NCBI GenBank assembly: GCA_937925855.1
Contig: CALAMO010000016.1
Coordinates: 1-64,000 of the forward strand
Direction: 5' to 3'
DNA from: an uncultured Thiotrichaceae bacterium
GTDB lineage: Bacteria > Pseudomonadota > Gammaproteobacteria > Thiotrichales > Thiotrichaceae
Length of the DNA: 64,000 bases
Part shown: positions 6,852-11,817 of the stretch, piece after piece
Layout: every line of letters starts with the position of its first letter
Position numbering within the stretch: the first letter of the stretch is position 1
Made by a program: the position numbers and the translations under genes
The notes under the pieces: generated by a model
What the model saw: only the letters and a program-made list of their open reading frames with translations
What the model was told of the DNA's origin: nothing
Database searches by the model: none

Positions 6852-7031
6852 TGGACTTTGCCAAAATATTGGGATGATTGTTGTCAATACGCTAGTTGAT
6901 GAGTGTGCGCCTAACGTTCGGTTTTTTTGATGGTTTTAAAGTTGACGTTCGGTTAGGGTTGGGCTATATGGATTCTGTATAGCATGATATACATAGAGTC
7001 TGTATATTAAACTGTTAGGTGTACTAGAGAC
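6852..7031 (+). other. Left edge of the cassette array with core-site-like motifs
   Basis: This gap holds GCCTAAC (6909-6915), GTTAGGG (6952-6958) and GTTAGGT (7014-7020), which resemble the outer boxes of attC sites, plus a direct repeat ACGTTCGG (from 6914 and 6945). The inner complementary boxes of a complete attC are not evident, so this may be a decayed site or an attI-like insertion point. Confidence 0.45.
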
Positions 7032-7289
7032 ATGGACGACGAGGATTTTGATGACTTATCACAACTCATTGGAAAGAAAGTCATCCGACGAAATATAAAT
7101 CCCTTAGATAAAGATGATGGAACTTCAGAAGTAGGTGTTATCGTATATGCATGGCGAGATTTTGAACTAAATGCGGTAGATTGCTATGTTGCTTTTTTGG
7201 GTGAAGACTGGCCGAAACTCGGTGAAAAACCAGAGCACAAACCAAACATTTTGAGATATTTACTTTCCTCCTTAGAGGAAATTTCATGA
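7032..7289 (+). CDS. Small acidic cassette protein of unknown function
   Basis: An 85-residue protein that I do not recognise. It is acidic at the N-terminus (MDDEDFDDLSQLIGKKV), with a predicted beta-strand segment EVGVIVYAWRDFELNAVDCY and a short C-terminal helix. No signal peptide or membrane segment is seen. It starts 11 bases after a GTTAGGT core site and its stop lies 16 bases before an attC site, exactly how single-gene integron cassettes are built; that position is the main support for it being a real gene. Confidence 0.65.
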   Translation: MDDEDFDDLSQLIGKKVIRRNINPLDKDDGTSEVGVIVYAWRDFELNAVDCYVAFLGEDWPKLGEKPEHKPNILRYLLSSLEEIS

Positions 7290-7305
7290 CTCAACTGTTC
7301 GGTAC

Positions 7306-7437
7306 ACCTAACAAAATCCTTATGCCACTCGCTATCACTCGTTCGGACACACAATTAATAGTGCAATTTGCATTTCGCTTCGCTACATTATTGCAAATTA
7401 TACTATTAATTATGCGCCGCATAGGATGGCGTTAGGT
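7306..7437 (+). repeat. attC recombination site 1 (132 bp)
   Basis: ACCTAAC (7306-7312) and GTTAGGT (7431-7437) are perfect inverted outer boxes matching RYYYAAC and GTTRRRY. The inner boxes ATCCTTATGC and GCATAGGAT pair except for one extra T on the left side, the extrahelical base that marks attC sites. The centre is a long, nearly perfect inverted repeat (AATTAATAGT and AATTTGCA on the left against TGCAAATT and ACTATTAATT on the right). Confidence 0.9.
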
Positions 7438-7469
7438 TGGATTGTATGGATTTGAAAAAGGAGACCTAG

Positions 7470-8189
7470 ATGAAAATATCAATTGTAATTCCTGCATATA
7501 ATGAAGAAAAATTCATAGGTCGGTTATTTGATTCTATAAAAGATATGAATGTTCCTTCTGGTGTGGAGTTAGAGGTTGTTGTTGTCTTAAATCGATGCAC
7601 TGACAAAACAGAAATAATAGCCAGAGAATTTGGTGCAAAAATCATTTCGAATGATACTAAAAACTTATCAAGTATTAGAAATTCAGGAGTCAAAGCGGCT
7701 ACTGGCGAGTGGGTGATTACTATTGATGCTGATAGCTGGATGTCCCAGAATACCTTAATAGAAATTTGTAATGAAATAAAAACTGGAAATGTGGTGGGTG
7801 GAGGCATTAATTTAAAGCCAGAACGTTCGTCTTTAGGTATATCAATTGGCTATGCTATGTTTCTACTACCTGCATTTTTTTTAAGGTTGTCTTTTGGTTT
7901 ATATTGGTTCAAAAAAGATTACTTTAATAGAATTAGCGGTTTTAACGAAAAGAAGTTGATTGCTGAAGATATTGATTTTCTAATCAGACTGAAAGGATTC
8001 GGTAGAACCATAGGTAAAAGGTATAAAAAAATAACGAAAGCATATGTTATTACATCTTGTAGAAAATTCGATCAATTTGGGGATTGGCATTTTGTCCGTA
8101 CCTTCAGTAATCCATGCACTATCATTCGTGCAGCTAAAGGAAGTAACAGTCAGTTTCTTGATAAGAATTGGTATGAAGTTAAACGCTAG
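7470..8189 (+). CDS. Family 2 glycosyltransferase (cassette-borne)
   Basis: A 239-residue GT-A fold enzyme. The N-terminal MKISIVIPAYNEEKFIGRLF is the standard nucleotide-sugar binding start, ITIDADSWM supplies the DxD metal motif, and KKLIAEDIDFLIRLKGFGR corresponds to the ED motif with the catalytic acid. A hydrophobic stretch around residues 123-145 (LGISIGYAMFLLPAFFLRLSF) could sit in or on the membrane. AGGAG precedes the ATG by about 5 bases. It lies between attC sites 1 and 2 as a single-gene cassette. The sugar donor and acceptor cannot be told; surface-polysaccharide changes are a plausible role. Confidence 0.85.
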   Translation: MKISIVIPAYNEEKFIGRLFDSIKDMNVPSGVELEVVVVLNRCTDKTEIIAREFGAKIISNDTKNLSSIRNSGVKAATGEWVITIDADSWMSQNTLIEICNEIKTGNVVGGGINLKPERSSLGISIGYAMFLLPAFFLRLSFGLYWFKKDYFNRISGFNEKKLIAEDIDFLIRLKGFGRTIGKRYKKITKAYVITSCRKFDQFGDWHFVRTFSNPCTIIRAAKGSNSQFLDKNWYEVKR

Positions 8190-8200
8190 AGCTTATAAAA

Positions 8201-8272
8201 ACCTAACAATTTGCTGCATCGGAAAAACTACTCGCTCTCGCTCGCATTTTTCCGCTGAGCAAGGCGTTAGGC
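8201..8272 (+). repeat. attC recombination site 2 (72 bp)
   Basis: ACCTAAC (8201-8207) and GTTAGGC (8266-8272) form the outer boxes. Inside, TTGCT pairs with AGCAA and CGGAAAAA with TTTTTCCG, leaving unpaired bases between them and a loop of about 20 bases rich in CTCG repeats. It directly follows the glycosyltransferase stop. Confidence 0.87.
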
Positions 8273-8359
8273 AAAGTGAACTCGGTTGGACAATCTTGGT
8301 AAGTCAAAAAAATGATGATGCTTGTTAAATGATCGAAATATTTTTTTCGTAGCAACACC

Positions 8360-8590
8360 TTGGTTTCTTACAGAAAAGATCTTCCTGCTAAAAAGGCAAA
8401 CCATGTTCATAATTTGATCCTGTTGGCTGGCAAGTATATGAAAGCGGGTGAAAAATATTCTGTAGTTGATTTAATGAGCGAAATACAACGTTCGGAAATG
8501 GAAAAGAGGTATTGGTTTTGCTGGCCGAAGCAGCTCCCAGTGATGAACAACTTGCCTTTCGAGGGTAAGCACAAATCAAGCTGCAAATGA
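8360..8590 (+). CDS. Doubtful small ORF, possibly a frameshifted cassette gene
   Basis: A 76-residue frame from a TTG codon that I do not recognise. Its first two thirds look protein-like (KANHVHNLILLAGKYMKAGE, then YSVVDLMSEIQRSEMEK), but the tail is rich in W, P and C. In the next frame the DNA of that tail reads GKEVLVLLAEAAPSDEQLAF and stops with TAA near 8567, which looks more natural. A single-base change near 8500-8510 would join the two. It may be a decayed gene or simply non-coding DNA before the toxin-antitoxin operon. If it is not a gene, 8190-8657 holds only attC site 2 and the higB control region. Confidence 0.3.
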   Translation: MVSYRKDLPAKKANHVHNLILLAGKYMKAGEKYSVVDLMSEIQRSEMEKRYWFCWPKQLPVMNNLPFEGKHKSSCK

Positions 8591-8609
8591 GATGAAAGTT
8601 TGGACGCTC

Positions 8610-8648
8610 TATAATACTATTGAATGATTTGTACCACGTAAGGTACAA
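8610..8648 (+). promoter_or_regulatory. Promoter and palindromic operator of the higBA pair
   Basis: TATAAT at 8610-8615 is a strong -10 element, though no good -35 is visible. The perfect palindrome TTGTACC-N6-GGTACAA (8629-8648) lies just upstream of the toxin start and is placed to block transcription when bound by the antitoxin, the usual autoregulation of type II pairs. Confidence 0.65.
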
Positions 8649-8657
8649 TTGTGTTCT

Positions 8658-9011
8658 ATGAGTACAGAGCCAATATTAACTGTCAACTTTTTCCTCACAA
8701 ACTCCGGCAATGAGCCAGTTCGTAACTGGTTGAAAGATATGGAGCGCGATGATAAGAAGGTGATCGGCGAAGACATAATGCTGGTACAGTTTCGCTGGCC
8801 TTTGGGCATGCCATTGGTCAGGAAGATGGAAGCTGACCTATGGGAAGTGCGAAGTAAGTTGAGCAATGGCAATATTGCCCGAACTTTTTTCACTGTCCAT
8901 GATGGAATCATGGCATTACTACATGGCTTCATCAAAAAATCTCAGAAAACACCCCAAAAAGAGATTGATTTGGCTCGTACTCGAAAAGATCAATGGTTTG
9001 ATGGGATATAG
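8658..9011 (+). CDS. HigB/Gp49-family toxin
   Basis: A 117-residue RelE-superfamily protein of the phage Gp49/HigB-like type, which usually cleaves mRNA on the ribosome. The features seen are NEPVRNWLKDMERDDKKVIGED in the N-terminal helix pair, PLVRKMEADLWEVRSKLSNG with the basic core, RTFFTVHDGIMALLHGFIKK as the central strands and a C-terminal KTPQKEIDLARTRKDQW. The ATG at 8658 is chosen over the in-frame TTG at 8649, which lies inside or beside the operator. The antitoxin gene follows after 3 bases. Toxin-first order and cassette location are usual for HigBA. Confidence 0.88.
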   Translation: MSTEPILTVNFFLTNSGNEPVRNWLKDMERDDKKVIGEDIMLVQFRWPLGMPLVRKMEADLWEVRSKLSNGNIARTFFTVHDGIMALLHGFIKKSQKTPQKEIDLARTRKDQWFDGI

Positions 9012-9014
9012 CTC

Positions 9015-9293
9015 ATGAATAAACATACAGGTAGCAGCTTCGATGACTTTCTTGAAGAAGAAGAAATGCTGGAAGAAGTCTCAGCGAAAGCACACAAACG
9101 CCTTTTGGCACTTCAACTTGCCGACATTATGGAAGAAAGCAGCATTACCAAAACCAGCTTGGCAGAAAAGCTAAAGACCAGCCGCTCCCAACTGGATAGG
9201 ATTCTTGATCCTGAAAATACTTCTGTCACCATAGAGCTTCTGGAGCGTGTTGCCCATGCCGTTGGTAAGAAGCTTCACATTGAATTTGCCTAA
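9015..9293 (+). CDS. HigA-type antitoxin with XRE helix-turn-helix
   Basis: A 92-residue protein with an acidic N-terminus (SSFDDFLEEEEMLEEV) that probably wraps the toxin, followed by a helix-turn-helix (TKTSLAEKLKTSRSQLDRIL) and a C-terminal ERVAHAVGKKLHIEF typical of antitoxins paired with Gp49-like toxins. It should neutralise the upstream toxin and bind the palindrome at 8629-8648. Its stop codon overlaps the GCCTAAC box of the next attC-like site, as often seen in cassettes. Confidence 0.88.
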   Translation: MNKHTGSSFDDFLEEEEMLEEVSAKAHKRLLALQLADIMEESSITKTSLAEKLKTSRSQLDRILDPENTSVTIELLERVAHAVGKKLHIEFA

Positions 9294-9335
9294 CAATACG
9301 TTACACCGAACAAGTCGGTGAGCTTGGCATTATAC
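9288..9335 (+). repeat. Short variant attC-like site after higA
   Basis: GCCTAAC (9288-9294) is a good left box. A central hairpin CACCGA-N5-TCGGTG follows, and the right side ends with GGC-ATTATAC (9329-9335) instead of GTTRRRY. The same ATTATAY ending recurs at 10684 and 11344, which supports a shared boundary type. It is shorter than normal attC sites. Confidence 0.45.
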
Positions 9336-9434
9336 CCGCTAAGCTAAATTTCATTGAGTTATTTTTTGATGAATGGTAATGTCAACAGATGCAAGAAAAT
9401 ACTTCATACAATTTTAATACAATTTCATGGTGGC

Positions 9435-9542
9435 GCTCTATTTTATAGAGCGGCGCTGAATCACATCTATTCAAAGCCGTCGGAAGACTGCTTGTGAATA
9501 ATCTCATTTATGTCTCCGATGGTATAACTATTAGGAGACATA
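9435..9542 (+). promoter_or_regulatory. Foldable leader of the tryptophanyl-tRNA synthetase gene
   Basis: Three elements are visible. A tight hairpin GCTCTAT-TTT-ATAGAGC lies at 9435-9451. A nine-pair stem TATGTCTCC (9509-9517) with GGAGACATA (9534-9542) buries the AGGAGA ribosome-binding site (9533-9538) of the ATG at 9545. The left arm of that stem can alternatively pair with TCGGAAGAC (9480-9488), giving eight pairs with one bulged A and freeing the ribosome-binding site. The two pairings exclude one another, as in translational attenuators. The remaining gap 9336-9434 holds nothing recognisable. Confidence 0.55.
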
Positions 9543-9544
9543 TT

Positions 9545-10570
9545 ATGCACAATTCTCAAAAAACCATTAAGAAAGAAAAAATATTAACTGGAGATAGAGC
9601 AACTGGTCAGTTGCATCTGGGGCATTTTGTTGGCTCGCTTCAGCAACGAGTTAAGCTGCAGCATGATTATGAGCAAACCGTTTTAGTTGCAGATTTACAA
9701 GGCTTAACGGATCACGGCCATAATCCACACAAGGTATCGTCTAATATTTTGAACGTTGTCGCTGATTATTTGGCTGTCGGTATTGAACCTGAAAAAACAA
9801 CTATTTGCTTGCAGTCAGCTATTCCTGCGTTATCTGAATTGACTATGTATTATTCAAACTTAGTTTCTGTTGCTAGACTACAGAGAAACCCAACGGTGAA
9901 AAGTGAGGTTTCAACTAAGTCATTTGGTTATTCAATTCCAACAGGTTTTTTAACATACCCGATTAGCCAAGCTGCAGATATTACCGCATTTAGAGCCACT
10001 TTAATTCCTGTTGGTGAAGACCAATTACCAATGATTGAGCAAACAAATGAGATAGTCAGAAAACTAAACCATATTGCACAAGATGACATTCTAGTGGAGT
10101 GTCGGCCATTATTAAGCAAGGTGTCTCGCTTGCCAAGTGCCGATGGTAAAAGTAAAATGTCAAAATCTATGGGTAACTGTATTTTCTTGAGCTCAAGTGA
10201 AAAGGAAATTTCGAAAGCCGTAAAGTCGATGTACACCGATCCTAATCATTTAAATATTGAAGACCCTGGGCAAATTAATGGTAATGTTGTATTTACGTAT
10301 TTAGATGCGTTCCACTCTGACTCAGTTTATGTTGATGAGCTAAAGGGTAGGTACCAAACCGGTGGTTTAGGTGATGGAACAACCAAAAAAATTCTAGAAG
10401 AGTGCTTGCAGAGTATATTAAAGCCAATTAGAGAGCGTAGGGAAATATTTATGTCAGATAAAGCTCAATTAATAGACATTCTTAGGGCTGGCAGCCAAAA
10501 AGCCGAAGAAGAATCTAATCAAGTATTAAATAGGGTGAAGTGCGCATTTGGCCTTAACTTATTTAATTGA
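9545..10570 (+). CDS. Tryptophanyl-tRNA synthetase, cassette-borne second-type paralogue
   Basis: Class I synthetase of 341 residues charging tRNA-Trp. HLGH at residues 24-27 is the HIGH motif, SKMSKSMGN near residue 202 is the KMSKS loop, and the C-terminal third carries the tRNA-binding helices. The sequence follows the TGDRxTGxLHLGH...LTDH...LARLxRNPTVKxE pattern of the streptococcal/lactobacillar branch rather than the usual gammaproteobacterial enzyme. Where most bacterial enzymes have DQHA it reads DLQG (residues 50-53), so the His43 equivalent is Gln. ATG 9545 has AGGAGA 6 bases upstream; an in-frame GTG at 9494 with GGAAGA is an alternative start (358 residues). Cassette location suggests an additional, acquired enzyme, possibly giving resistance to a TrpRS inhibitor (inference). 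Confidence 0.93.
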   Translation: MHNSQKTIKKEKILTGDRATGQLHLGHFVGSLQQRVKLQHDYEQTVLVADLQGLTDHGHNPHKVSSNILNVVADYLAVGIEPEKTTICLQSAIPALSELTMYYSNLVSVARLQRNPTVKSEVSTKSFGYSIPTGFLTYPISQAADITAFRATLIPVGEDQLPMIEQTNEIVRKLNHIAQDDILVECRPLLSKVSRLPSADGKSKMSKSMGNCIFLSSSEKEISKAVKSMYTDPNHLNIEDPGQINGNVVFTYLDAFHSDSVYVDELKGRYQTGGLGDGTTKKILEECLQSILKPIRERREIFMSDKAQLIDILRAGSQKAEEESNQVLNRVKCAFGLNLFN

Positions 10571-10588
10571 AAAAAATCAATAAGGTGG

Positions 10589-10690
10589 GTATAACAAATC
10601 GTTCAAGCATGGCAAATAATATGTTGGCTTTTGCTCTCTAGTTGCTTATTTTAGTCAACATATTACTTGCCTCTTAACGAGGCATTATAT
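10589..10690 (+). repeat. Variant attC-like site after the TrpRS gene (102 bp)
   Basis: GTATAAC (10589-10595) faces ATTATAT (10684-10690). Inner boxes TCGTTCAAG and CTTAACGA pair with one extra C on the left, an attC-like extrahelical base. The centre is a stem of 19 positions with about two mismatches (GGCAAATAATATGTTGGCT against AGTCAACATATTACTTGCC). The architecture is attC-like, but the right core has A in place of the normally invariant G. Confidence 0.6.
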
Positions 10691-10706
10691 GTCTTTGGAG
10701 AGTTAA

Positions 10707-11255
10707 GTGCAGAACCCAGGAGAGGAAGTTGCAGGAGAATATTTGAAAATCATTCTTGGGTGTGACTTCGTAGAATACAATTTATACACCCCGGATATTC
10801 AAGGTGAGATTGACGTTGTCGGGATCAACGCTAAAGAAAAAATAGTTTATATATGCGAAGTTGCTACGCATCTTGTAACCGGCTTGCAATATGTCAAAAA
10901 CAAACAGCCCGATAACGTAAACCGCTTCACCAAGAAATTTAGGAAGAATATTGAATATGCCAACAAATATTTCTCTGATTACGAAAAACACTTTATGTTA
11001 TGGTCTCCAATCGTAAAGAACTCAGGCCCAAATGCTAAAAACAATCAGCTTAATGCTATCGCTGAAATTCAAGAAATCTTAAAATCTGAATATGGCGTTC
11101 ATATAGAGCCCGTAATAAATGAAGAATATGCAAAATGTTTGGGTGAGCTCCGCAGATACGCAGCAGAAGAAACTAAAGAGCTAAAATCACCAATATTGAG
11201 GTTGATGCAAATTGAAGAGAAGCTATCTAAACATGTGTCGCGTCTCAACAGGTAA
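10707..11255 (+). CDS. Possible PD-(D/E)XK-superfamily protein of unknown function
   Basis: A 182-residue protein that I do not recognise as a named family. The N-terminal half has the layout of a restriction-endonuclease-like core: helix NPGEEVAGEYLKIIL, then GEIDVVGINAKEKIVYICEV with D36 and E51 at plausible metal positions. The usual lysine after the Glu is replaced (E51-V-A53-T-H55), so activity is uncertain. The C-terminal half is helical and charged. GTG is the start, with GGAG 6 bases upstream. It is a single-gene cassette between two variant attC-like sites. A role in defence or DNA processing is only suggested by the fold pattern. Confidence 0.75.
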   Translation: MQNPGEEVAGEYLKIILGCDFVEYNLYTPDIQGEIDVVGINAKEKIVYICEVATHLVTGLQYVKNKQPDNVNRFTKKFRKNIEYANKYFSDYEKHFMLWSPIVKNSGPNAKNNQLNAIAEIQEILKSEYGVHIEPVINEEYAKCLGELRRYAAEETKELKSPILRLMQIEEKLSKHVSRLNR

Positions 11256-11350
11256 CAAGTCAATTAACTTCGCGCCTTCGGCGCCGGACAGCCTATGCGT
11301 CGCTGCACATTTTAACCAACTATTTTTGTCCGCTTAAGTGGACATTATAT
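11250..11350 (+). repeat. Variant attC-like site after the PD-(D/E)XK-like gene
   Basis: AGGTAAC (11250-11256) overlaps the stop of the upstream gene and ATTATAT (11344-11350) closes the site. The segments AAGTCAATTAA and TTAAGTGGAC are partly complementary, and the middle holds GGCGCGAAG/CTTCGCGCC-type pairing around 11268-11286. Complementarity is weaker than in the other sites. Confidence 0.4.
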
Positions 11351-11362
11351 GCCAAAAGCACT

Positions 11363-11803
11363 ATGAAAGTAGATCAGATTAAAACAAAAAATAAACTATA
11401 CGAACAGGCTTTAGATTTAAGGTACAGGTTATTTTTCAAGGAATTTGGTCATCCTAAAGATATTGTTATGGACGGCCTTGAGGCATCAAGCATGCACTAC
11501 TGCATTTCTGAAAATGACAAGTTATTTGCTTATGGTCGCCTCACAGAACGAAGCAATAATCACTATAAAATATCTCAGGTTGTTGTTCCCCCGGCTTTAC
11601 AAGGTCAGGGCTATGGGAAACTTTTACTAACCGGCATTATCTGCTCGGCCAATGAACTAGGTGCTGCAACTATTGAGCTTAATTCACAAGTAAAAGCAGC
11701 TGGGCTTTATCGCACACTCGGCTTTAAAGAGTCAGGCTCCCATTACGCCTCAAAAACCACCGGAATTCCACATGTTAAGATGGTTTTGGCAACAGCCACA
11801 TGA
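11363..11803 (+). CDS. GNAT-family N-acetyltransferase (ElaA-like)
   Basis: A 146-residue GCN5-type acyltransferase using acetyl-CoA. The acetyl-CoA pyrophosphate loop is VVVPPALQGQGYGKLLL (Q/R-x-x-G-x-G), preceded by FAYGRLTER and followed by the AAGLYRTLGFKESGSHYASK and GIPHVKM segments that resemble the ElaA subgroup. The acceptor is unknown. It is the last gene of the cassette array, with the same AT-rich composition, and no attC site is seen in the 14 bases between its stop and the convergent Uma2 gene, so the cassette is probably truncated. Confidence 0.85.
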   Translation: MKVDQIKTKNKLYEQALDLRYRLFFKEFGHPKDIVMDGLEASSMHYCISENDKLFAYGRLTERSNNHYKISQVVVPPALQGQGYGKLLLTGIICSANELGAATIELNSQVKAAGLYRTLGFKESGSHYASKTTGIPHVKMVLATAT

Positions 11804-11817
11804 AAAGGCGCTAAAAA

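Follow-up and report, generated by a model that had tools for sequence, protein, structure and literature searches.

A mobile second tryptophanyl-tRNA synthetase gene in an integron cassette, with a tandem-Trp RNA leader and a predicted promoter of its own

Integron cassettes are usually regarded as promoterless single genes, and a tryptophanyl-tRNA synthetase (TrpRS) gene in one of them raises the questions of whether it is a true cassette, whether the host needs it beside its own enzyme, how it is expressed and what it is for. The gene, trpS2, lies at positions 9545..10570 of a 64,000-nucleotide stretch of DNA from an uncultured Thiotrichaceae bacterium (here called the window; all features given below without a contig name are on its forward strand), whose genome of 3.57 Mb is 96.6% complete. 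An earlier note on this DNA had proposed a cassette-borne TrpRS of foreign type that may protect against TrpRS inhibitors. Our literature search found no paper that describes a synthetase gene carried by an integron cassette, although such papers may exist.

The cassette has clear borders. Downstream of the gene is an attC site of 102 bp (10589..10690; R' = ATTATAT, with GTTATGT in the Marinomonas copy described below), which was detected by a hairpin-based search together with two other attC sites (7306-7437 and 8201-8272); the same search detected none in a 25-kb control stretch. The 5' side is closed by the short attC (9289..9335; R' = ATTATAC) of the preceding higBA cassette, and a similar attC with GTT intact is found in the host genome's own integron. 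Between the R' cut points of these flanking sites, the trpS cassette spans 1,355 bp (9330..10684), and its G+C content is 37% versus 54.2% in the chromosomal part of the window (20-64 kb). It belongs to an array of six cassettes (6909..11810) located between aroC and the Uma2/cfa genes, with an 85-aa protein, a GT2 glycosyltransferase, higBA, trpS2, a 182-aa protein of no assigned function and a GNAT protein as contents. The toxin-antitoxin cassette of HigB/HigA type (Gp49 family and HTH proteins; 8649-9293) is directly 5' of the trpS cassette. The 182-aa protein (10707-11255) has no match in Pfam and NCBIfam, and its relatives are found on Variovorax megaplasmids, in Rossellomorea and in haloarchaea. 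No integrase gene is present on the trpS2 contig, and two integron-type integrases are encoded elsewhere in the genome, one with an internal stop; this second integrase (in the region C10:265000-275350) is interrupted by a TAA, yet at least four good attC sites follow it.

The claim that the gene sits on a cassette thus holds, on the attC at its 3' end and on a cassette-exact match in Marinomonas gallaica, a member of a different order of bacteria. A contig of this species matches 9326-10692 of the window at 96% DNA identity and shows zero similarity outside, and its cassette neighbours are unrelated (an OsmC-like gene and other small genes). Judged by sequence comparison, this sharing is the best proof of mobility of the trpS cassette. 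The gene is absent from all eight other genomes of the genus and present in 3 of 63 genomes of the family; two further carriers (one is Cocleimonas), at 83%, are less similar than the Marinomonas copy. A clean empty site was not found in the genus, where the genes flanking the array are in a different order in the relatives. Three successive R' boxes in the array (9329, 10684 and about 11345) read ATTATA instead of GTTATA. At both borders of the trpS cassette, A thus replaces G at the cut base of the integrase, while the Marinomonas copy reads GTTATA or GTTATG at its borders. Because the cut base is changed on both sides, the window copy may be fixed in place and may no longer move.

The encoded protein (341 aa plus stop) matches TIGR00233, the trpS equivalog (239 bits; cut-off 176.75), and PF00579 over its full length, as a class Ic synthetase; the KMSKS motif is intact, and the Trp-pocket residues equivalent to D132 and Q147 are present. 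The nearest solved structures (1yi8 and 2a4m) are those of Deinococcus TrpRS II, and the cassette enzyme is of this TrpRS II type. In a tree of 50 TrpRS proteins, the 43 rows of TrpRS II type, including Deinococcus TrpRS II, formed one group with a support of 100/99, and the housekeeping TrpRS of the host was placed far outside. The cassette enzyme pairs with that of Marinomonas (100/99) inside a marine gammaproteobacterial group, which joins a group made up of Salmonella and Klebsiella trpS2 and Morganella (100/99); Clostridium copies and Staphylococcus plasmid copies belong to the same clade, further out. In Staphylococcus epidermidis, a gene of this type lies beside an MFS efflux gene on a 15-kb plasmid, and the staphylococcal carriers are small mobilizable plasmids. 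The foreign origin proposed in the earlier note is supported by this separation from the host enzyme, by the absence from relatives in the genus and by the sharing with Marinomonas. That reading also presupposed a second, standard trpS in the genome; an ordinary trpS of 409 aa is found at C10:63947-65125, so that the cassette copy is additional. An ordinary trpS is likewise present in 25 of 26 genomes having a TrpRS II-type gene, and Celerinatantimonas diazotrophica is the only one of the 26 whose sole TrpRS is of TrpRS II type. A library of defence genes gave no match for the cassette TrpRS.

Residue 52 of the cassette enzyme is Gln, as had been noted, at the position of His43 of B. stearothermophilus TrpRS. 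His43 contacts indolmycin, and the change H43N leads to resistance (PMC4899734). Gln occupies this position in 43 of 43 TrpRS II-type rows, and the host enzyme has His. Because Gln is fixed across the type, Gln52 by itself is no evidence for a resistance role of the cassette gene and, as far as the alignment tells, is a lineage-wide trait and no adaptation of this gene.

The earlier reading was right about the TrpRS cassette itself and overlooked what lies in front of the gene, namely a predicted promoter, a leader peptide and an RNA switch. The leader open reading frame (ORF) at 9389..9448 has 19 codons (MQENTSYNFNTISWWRSIL, then a stop) with tandem Trp codons at 9428-9433. The sequence upstream of its ATG reads TTGAGT-17-TGGTAATGT, in which we predict a promoter with an extended -10 element (TTGAGT, 17 nt, TGG-TAATGT; 9354..9382), of the same spacing in most homologs; its score of 8/12 is under the cut-off of a general promoter scan, where it is hence unlisted. 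In the cassette and in 24 of 43 homologs, exactly 6 nt separate the -10 hexamer from the leader ATG. Because of this exact distance the transcript should begin at the leader AUG, and the ORF is predicted to be leaderless, its ATG being at or adjoining the transcript start. An upstream ORF with two adjacent Trp codons is found in 38 of 40 homologs (at least 65% identity), with 0.16 expected from shuffled sequence, and also in the trpS2 copies of Salmonella, Klebsiella and an E. coli plasmid. The leader ORFs of Salmonella and Klebsiella trpS2 contain RWWLPS and RWWLPA, respectively, and no description of them was found in our literature search.

The RNA following the start of this ORF can form mutually exclusive helices. 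Helix 1:2 (9430..9456; 9430-9440 with 9446-9456) overlaps the Trp codons and the leader stop, and 96.9% of its alignment cells are paired, with U-A for C-G on both sides. Helix 2:3 (9450..9480; 9450-9454 with 9476-9480) is possible only when strand 1 is masked. Helix 3:4 (9476..9523; 9476-9484 and 9486-9488 with 9512-9523), which is in the RNAalifold consensus, shows compensatory changes at alignment columns 56-111, 58-109, 59-108 and 66-102, and it excludes the sequestor helix 4:5 (9510..9541; 9510-9517 with 9534-9541). The latter covers the Shine-Dalgarno sequence AGGAG of trpS2 (9533-9537) and has 93.7% of cells paired, with an A-U to G-C exchange at columns 102-135. Column 102 pairs with either 66 or 135, and all three change jointly from U-A-U to C-G-C, which fits two exclusive pairings of strand 4. 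The helices 1:2, 3:4 and 4:5 covary across 32 leaders, part of the signal coming from a few old changes among related sequences.

The leader and the gene have been kept together in many genera. A covariance model of the leader gave about one match per genome with the gene, located before trpS2, and no match in the trpS2-lacking genomes of the genus; the exception was one genome with two leader-bearing copies and one weak extra match. A weak extra match of 32 bits lies away from trpS2 (C1:2041927-2042017 of one genome). No such family exists in Rfam, and an Rfam scan of the leader gave nothing above chance. On sequence evidence, then, trpS2 is a real, intact and horizontally moved gene with a tandem-Trp RNA switch built in.

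Which way the switch turns was approached by folding the leaders with strand 1 masked as by a stalled ribosome. When the first 17 nt were masked in RNAs ending after strand 3, strand 2 left strand 1 in the computed structures, and the mean probability of helix 2:3 rose from 0.06 to 0.97 (32/32 leaders). Among the folding tests of ribosome masking, only this exchange of 1:2 for 2:3 was clear. In RNAs cut before the Shine-Dalgarno sequence, masking strand 1 lowered the mean probability of helix 3:4 from 0.83 to 0.62 (22 of 32 down, none up), opposite to the direction that the proposed switch requires, and in whole leaders the exposure of the Shine-Dalgarno sequence rose in 16 and fell in 6 of 44 and was mostly unchanged, the sequence being mostly paired either way. 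We take starvation for charged Trp-tRNA to be the ON condition for four reasons: the leader has tandem Trp codons, the 1:2 to 2:3 exchange is robust, Salmonella trpS2 is coupled with trp genes, and Streptomyces offers a parallel.

The control step itself might be transcription termination instead of hiding of the Shine-Dalgarno sequence, with a 3:3' hairpin as the terminator and helix 2:3 as the antiterminator, and this would be compatible with everything else that we propose. It would give the expected polarity without further assumptions, and it agrees with the Klebsiella trpS2 leader, in which a T-rich tail comes after a terminator-like middle hairpin, with the T-runs close behind the middle hairpin in Vibrio leaders, and with the leaderless Trp leader of Streptomyces lividans trpS, MMTRTCTQLWRAA, which is described as having a single Trp codon and two hairpins and no U-run (PMC8079986). 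Against it, the window leader contains no terminator-like site, neither its nearest relatives nor P. luteoviolacea have a T-run behind the hairpin, and the helix covering the Shine-Dalgarno sequence is kept and covaries in all groups. We give this alternative real weight while leaning away from it, and termination may be an older or additional output of the leader, as the distribution of these sequence features suggests.

Our best explanation, which we consider fairly likely, is that the trpS2 cassette is a self-contained, mobile and inducible backup TrpRS, probably selected by TrpRS inhibitors. The predicted cassette-internal promoter would give a transcript starting at or near the AUG of the leader ORF with its two adjacent Trp codons. 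When charged Trp-tRNA is plentiful, ribosomes would pass the leader, helix 1:2 would form or strand 2 would be covered, strand 3 would fold on itself, and the trpS2 Shine-Dalgarno sequence would be locked in helix 4:5. When charged Trp-tRNA is low, a ribosome would stall on the Trp codons and cover strand 1, strand 2 would take strand 3, and the Shine-Dalgarno sequence should end free, so that trpS2 would be translated. The enzyme, having a pocket without the His that contacts indolmycin, would then charge tRNA-Trp while the housekeeping enzyme is inhibited or poisoned or does not suffice. It counts for this explanation that Celerinatantimonas diazotrophica, the exception with a sole TrpRS, is also without a Trp leader. 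Against it stand the lineage-wide Gln, the folding results for the later steps of the switch and the altered cut bases at both cassette borders.

The link to inhibitors comes from Pseudoalteromonas. In a survey of 99 genomes of this genus, TrpRS II-type genes were found in 21, three of which have two copies. Two of these three have a copy of the same clade that is 70% identical to the cassette TrpRS and has the same pocket residues, located 36 nt downstream of a gene for an aromatic aminotransferase in a cluster which also encodes an MppP-like aminotransferase, a PaaK-like ligase, two SAM methyltransferases, a glyoxalase-like protein, a 2-hydroxyacid dehydrogenase and a LuxR regulator. Because its gene content and order match those published, we infer that this is the indolmycin cluster, in which the TrpRS gene, unk1, has been put forward as the probable resistance gene (PMC5069768). 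Unlike the cassette gene, this copy stands in a biosynthetic operon without a leader, which counts against our explanation; in both genomes a second trpS2 with a leader is found elsewhere. Our literature search found no assay of any member of the TrpRS II-type clade with indolmycin or another inhibitor. The protection against TrpRS inhibitors suggested in the earlier note gains from the 70% identical relative in the indolmycin cluster and from the tandem-Trp leader resembling that of Streptomyces, and its argument from His to Gln is weaker than was stated, because Gln is present in all 43 rows, including the sole TrpRS of Celerinatantimonas. Inhibitor resistance is, in our judgement, the best-supported reading of the role of trpS2.

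The same leader could also have been selected nutritionally, if the gene were a backup keeping up charging during tryptophan shortage and had no connection with inhibitors. The leader would sense any lack of Trp-tRNA, and leader-bearing copies adjoin violacein genes, which consume tryptophan, in several Pseudoalteromonas species (tail to tail with vioEDCBA; VioE, VioB and VioA confirmed). In Salmonella, trpS2 is expressed together with trp genes (PMC2805695, PMC12506092). An extra synthetase, however, would be of no help at low tryptophan unless its Km were lower, a distant type with an altered Trp pocket would be unneeded, and membership in the indolmycin cluster would be unexplained; we regard shortage as a possible but rather unlikely selecting agent. 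The gene might instead be a passenger of no current benefit, caught while passing through the integron, as its sporadic occurrence (absent from the eight other genus genomes, 3/63 in the family) and the mutation of both R' cut bases would allow. Such a passenger would hardly be expected to keep its reading frame, catalytic motifs, leader ORF and helices intact at 96-98% likeness to the Marinomonas copy, or its leader with the gene across many genera, and we think this reading improbable. Far less credible still is a partner of nitric oxide synthase that nitrates tryptophan, the function of Deinococcus TrpRS II (summarised in PMC9437257). Deinococcus radiodurans TrpRS II is of the same enzyme type, has Gln at the His43 position, is 51% identical and provides the nearest solved structures, but a tandem-Trp leader has no role there, and nitric oxide synthase is absent from the host genome; in two control genomes, an identical search did detect it.

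With inducible backup as the preferred reading, the closest functional parallel would be the inducible indolmycin-resistant second TrpRS of Streptomyces (TrpRS1; SCO3334 and SGR_3809; PMC9437257, PMC6804068), upstream of which an attenuator was predicted (PMC1262725). The cassette would work like that system, in which a second TrpRS stands beside a sensitive one, is induced and has a leader ORF with a Trp codon upstream; the comparison is one of published descriptions, for TrpRS1 in papers that cite the original work. The Streptomyces gene differs in being chromosomal, in having a single Trp codon in the leader and in being activated also by WblC (PMC7157823). Salmonella enterica trpS2 (STM4508) and Klebsiella trpS2 are of the same clade (61-63% identical to the cassette TrpRS, with 61% for Salmonella), auxiliary and preceded by a tandem-Trp leader, and unlike the window gene they are chromosomal or plasmid-borne and in no cassettes, with a leader hairpin that is more terminator-like. 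In Salmonella, transposon insertions in the ordinary trpS are tolerated, presumably, according to the authors, because of trpS2 (PMC3487940); this is the single genetic observation that bears on what the clade does, and it counts for a backup role. The proteobacterial trpL attenuator shares with the trpS2 leader a short ORF with adjacent Trp codons and the choice between strands 1:2 and 2:3. The leader in the window differs in controlling a synthetase, in its predicted leaderless ORF, in a last helix that hides the Shine-Dalgarno sequence, and in having no terminator-like site and no Rfam match. A transferable, drug-insensitive second synthetase is also known in mupA/ileS2, which is plasmid-borne; it is likewise a mobile spare synthetase, but a different enzyme and not in an integron cassette with an attenuator.

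The novelty here lies in a TrpRS gene packaged in an integron cassette along with its control, and in an RNA element conserved in Gammaproteobacteria. Whether this amounts to a new sort of cassette, a sense-and-respond resistance unit composed of a promoter, a leaderless stall-sensing ORF, an RNA switch and a drug-insensitive essential enzyme and independent of both the integron promoter and host regulators, and whether the trpS2 leader is an undescribed class of RNA elements in marine Gammaproteobacteria, diverged in Salmonella and Klebsiella, is in our opinion evenly balanced. If true, inducible control of an essential translation enzyme inside a cassette would mean that bacteria can exchange resistance together with its regulation in one unit, and the trpS2 leader would be a compact natural reporter of Trp-tRNA charging. 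This would also help to explain the trpS2 genes of Salmonella and Klebsiella, which have lacked an explanation, along with the many second TrpRS genes in marine bacteria. It would caution, too, that bacteria may already have widespread and mobile resistance to inhibitors of TrpRS, a class of compounds in development as drugs.
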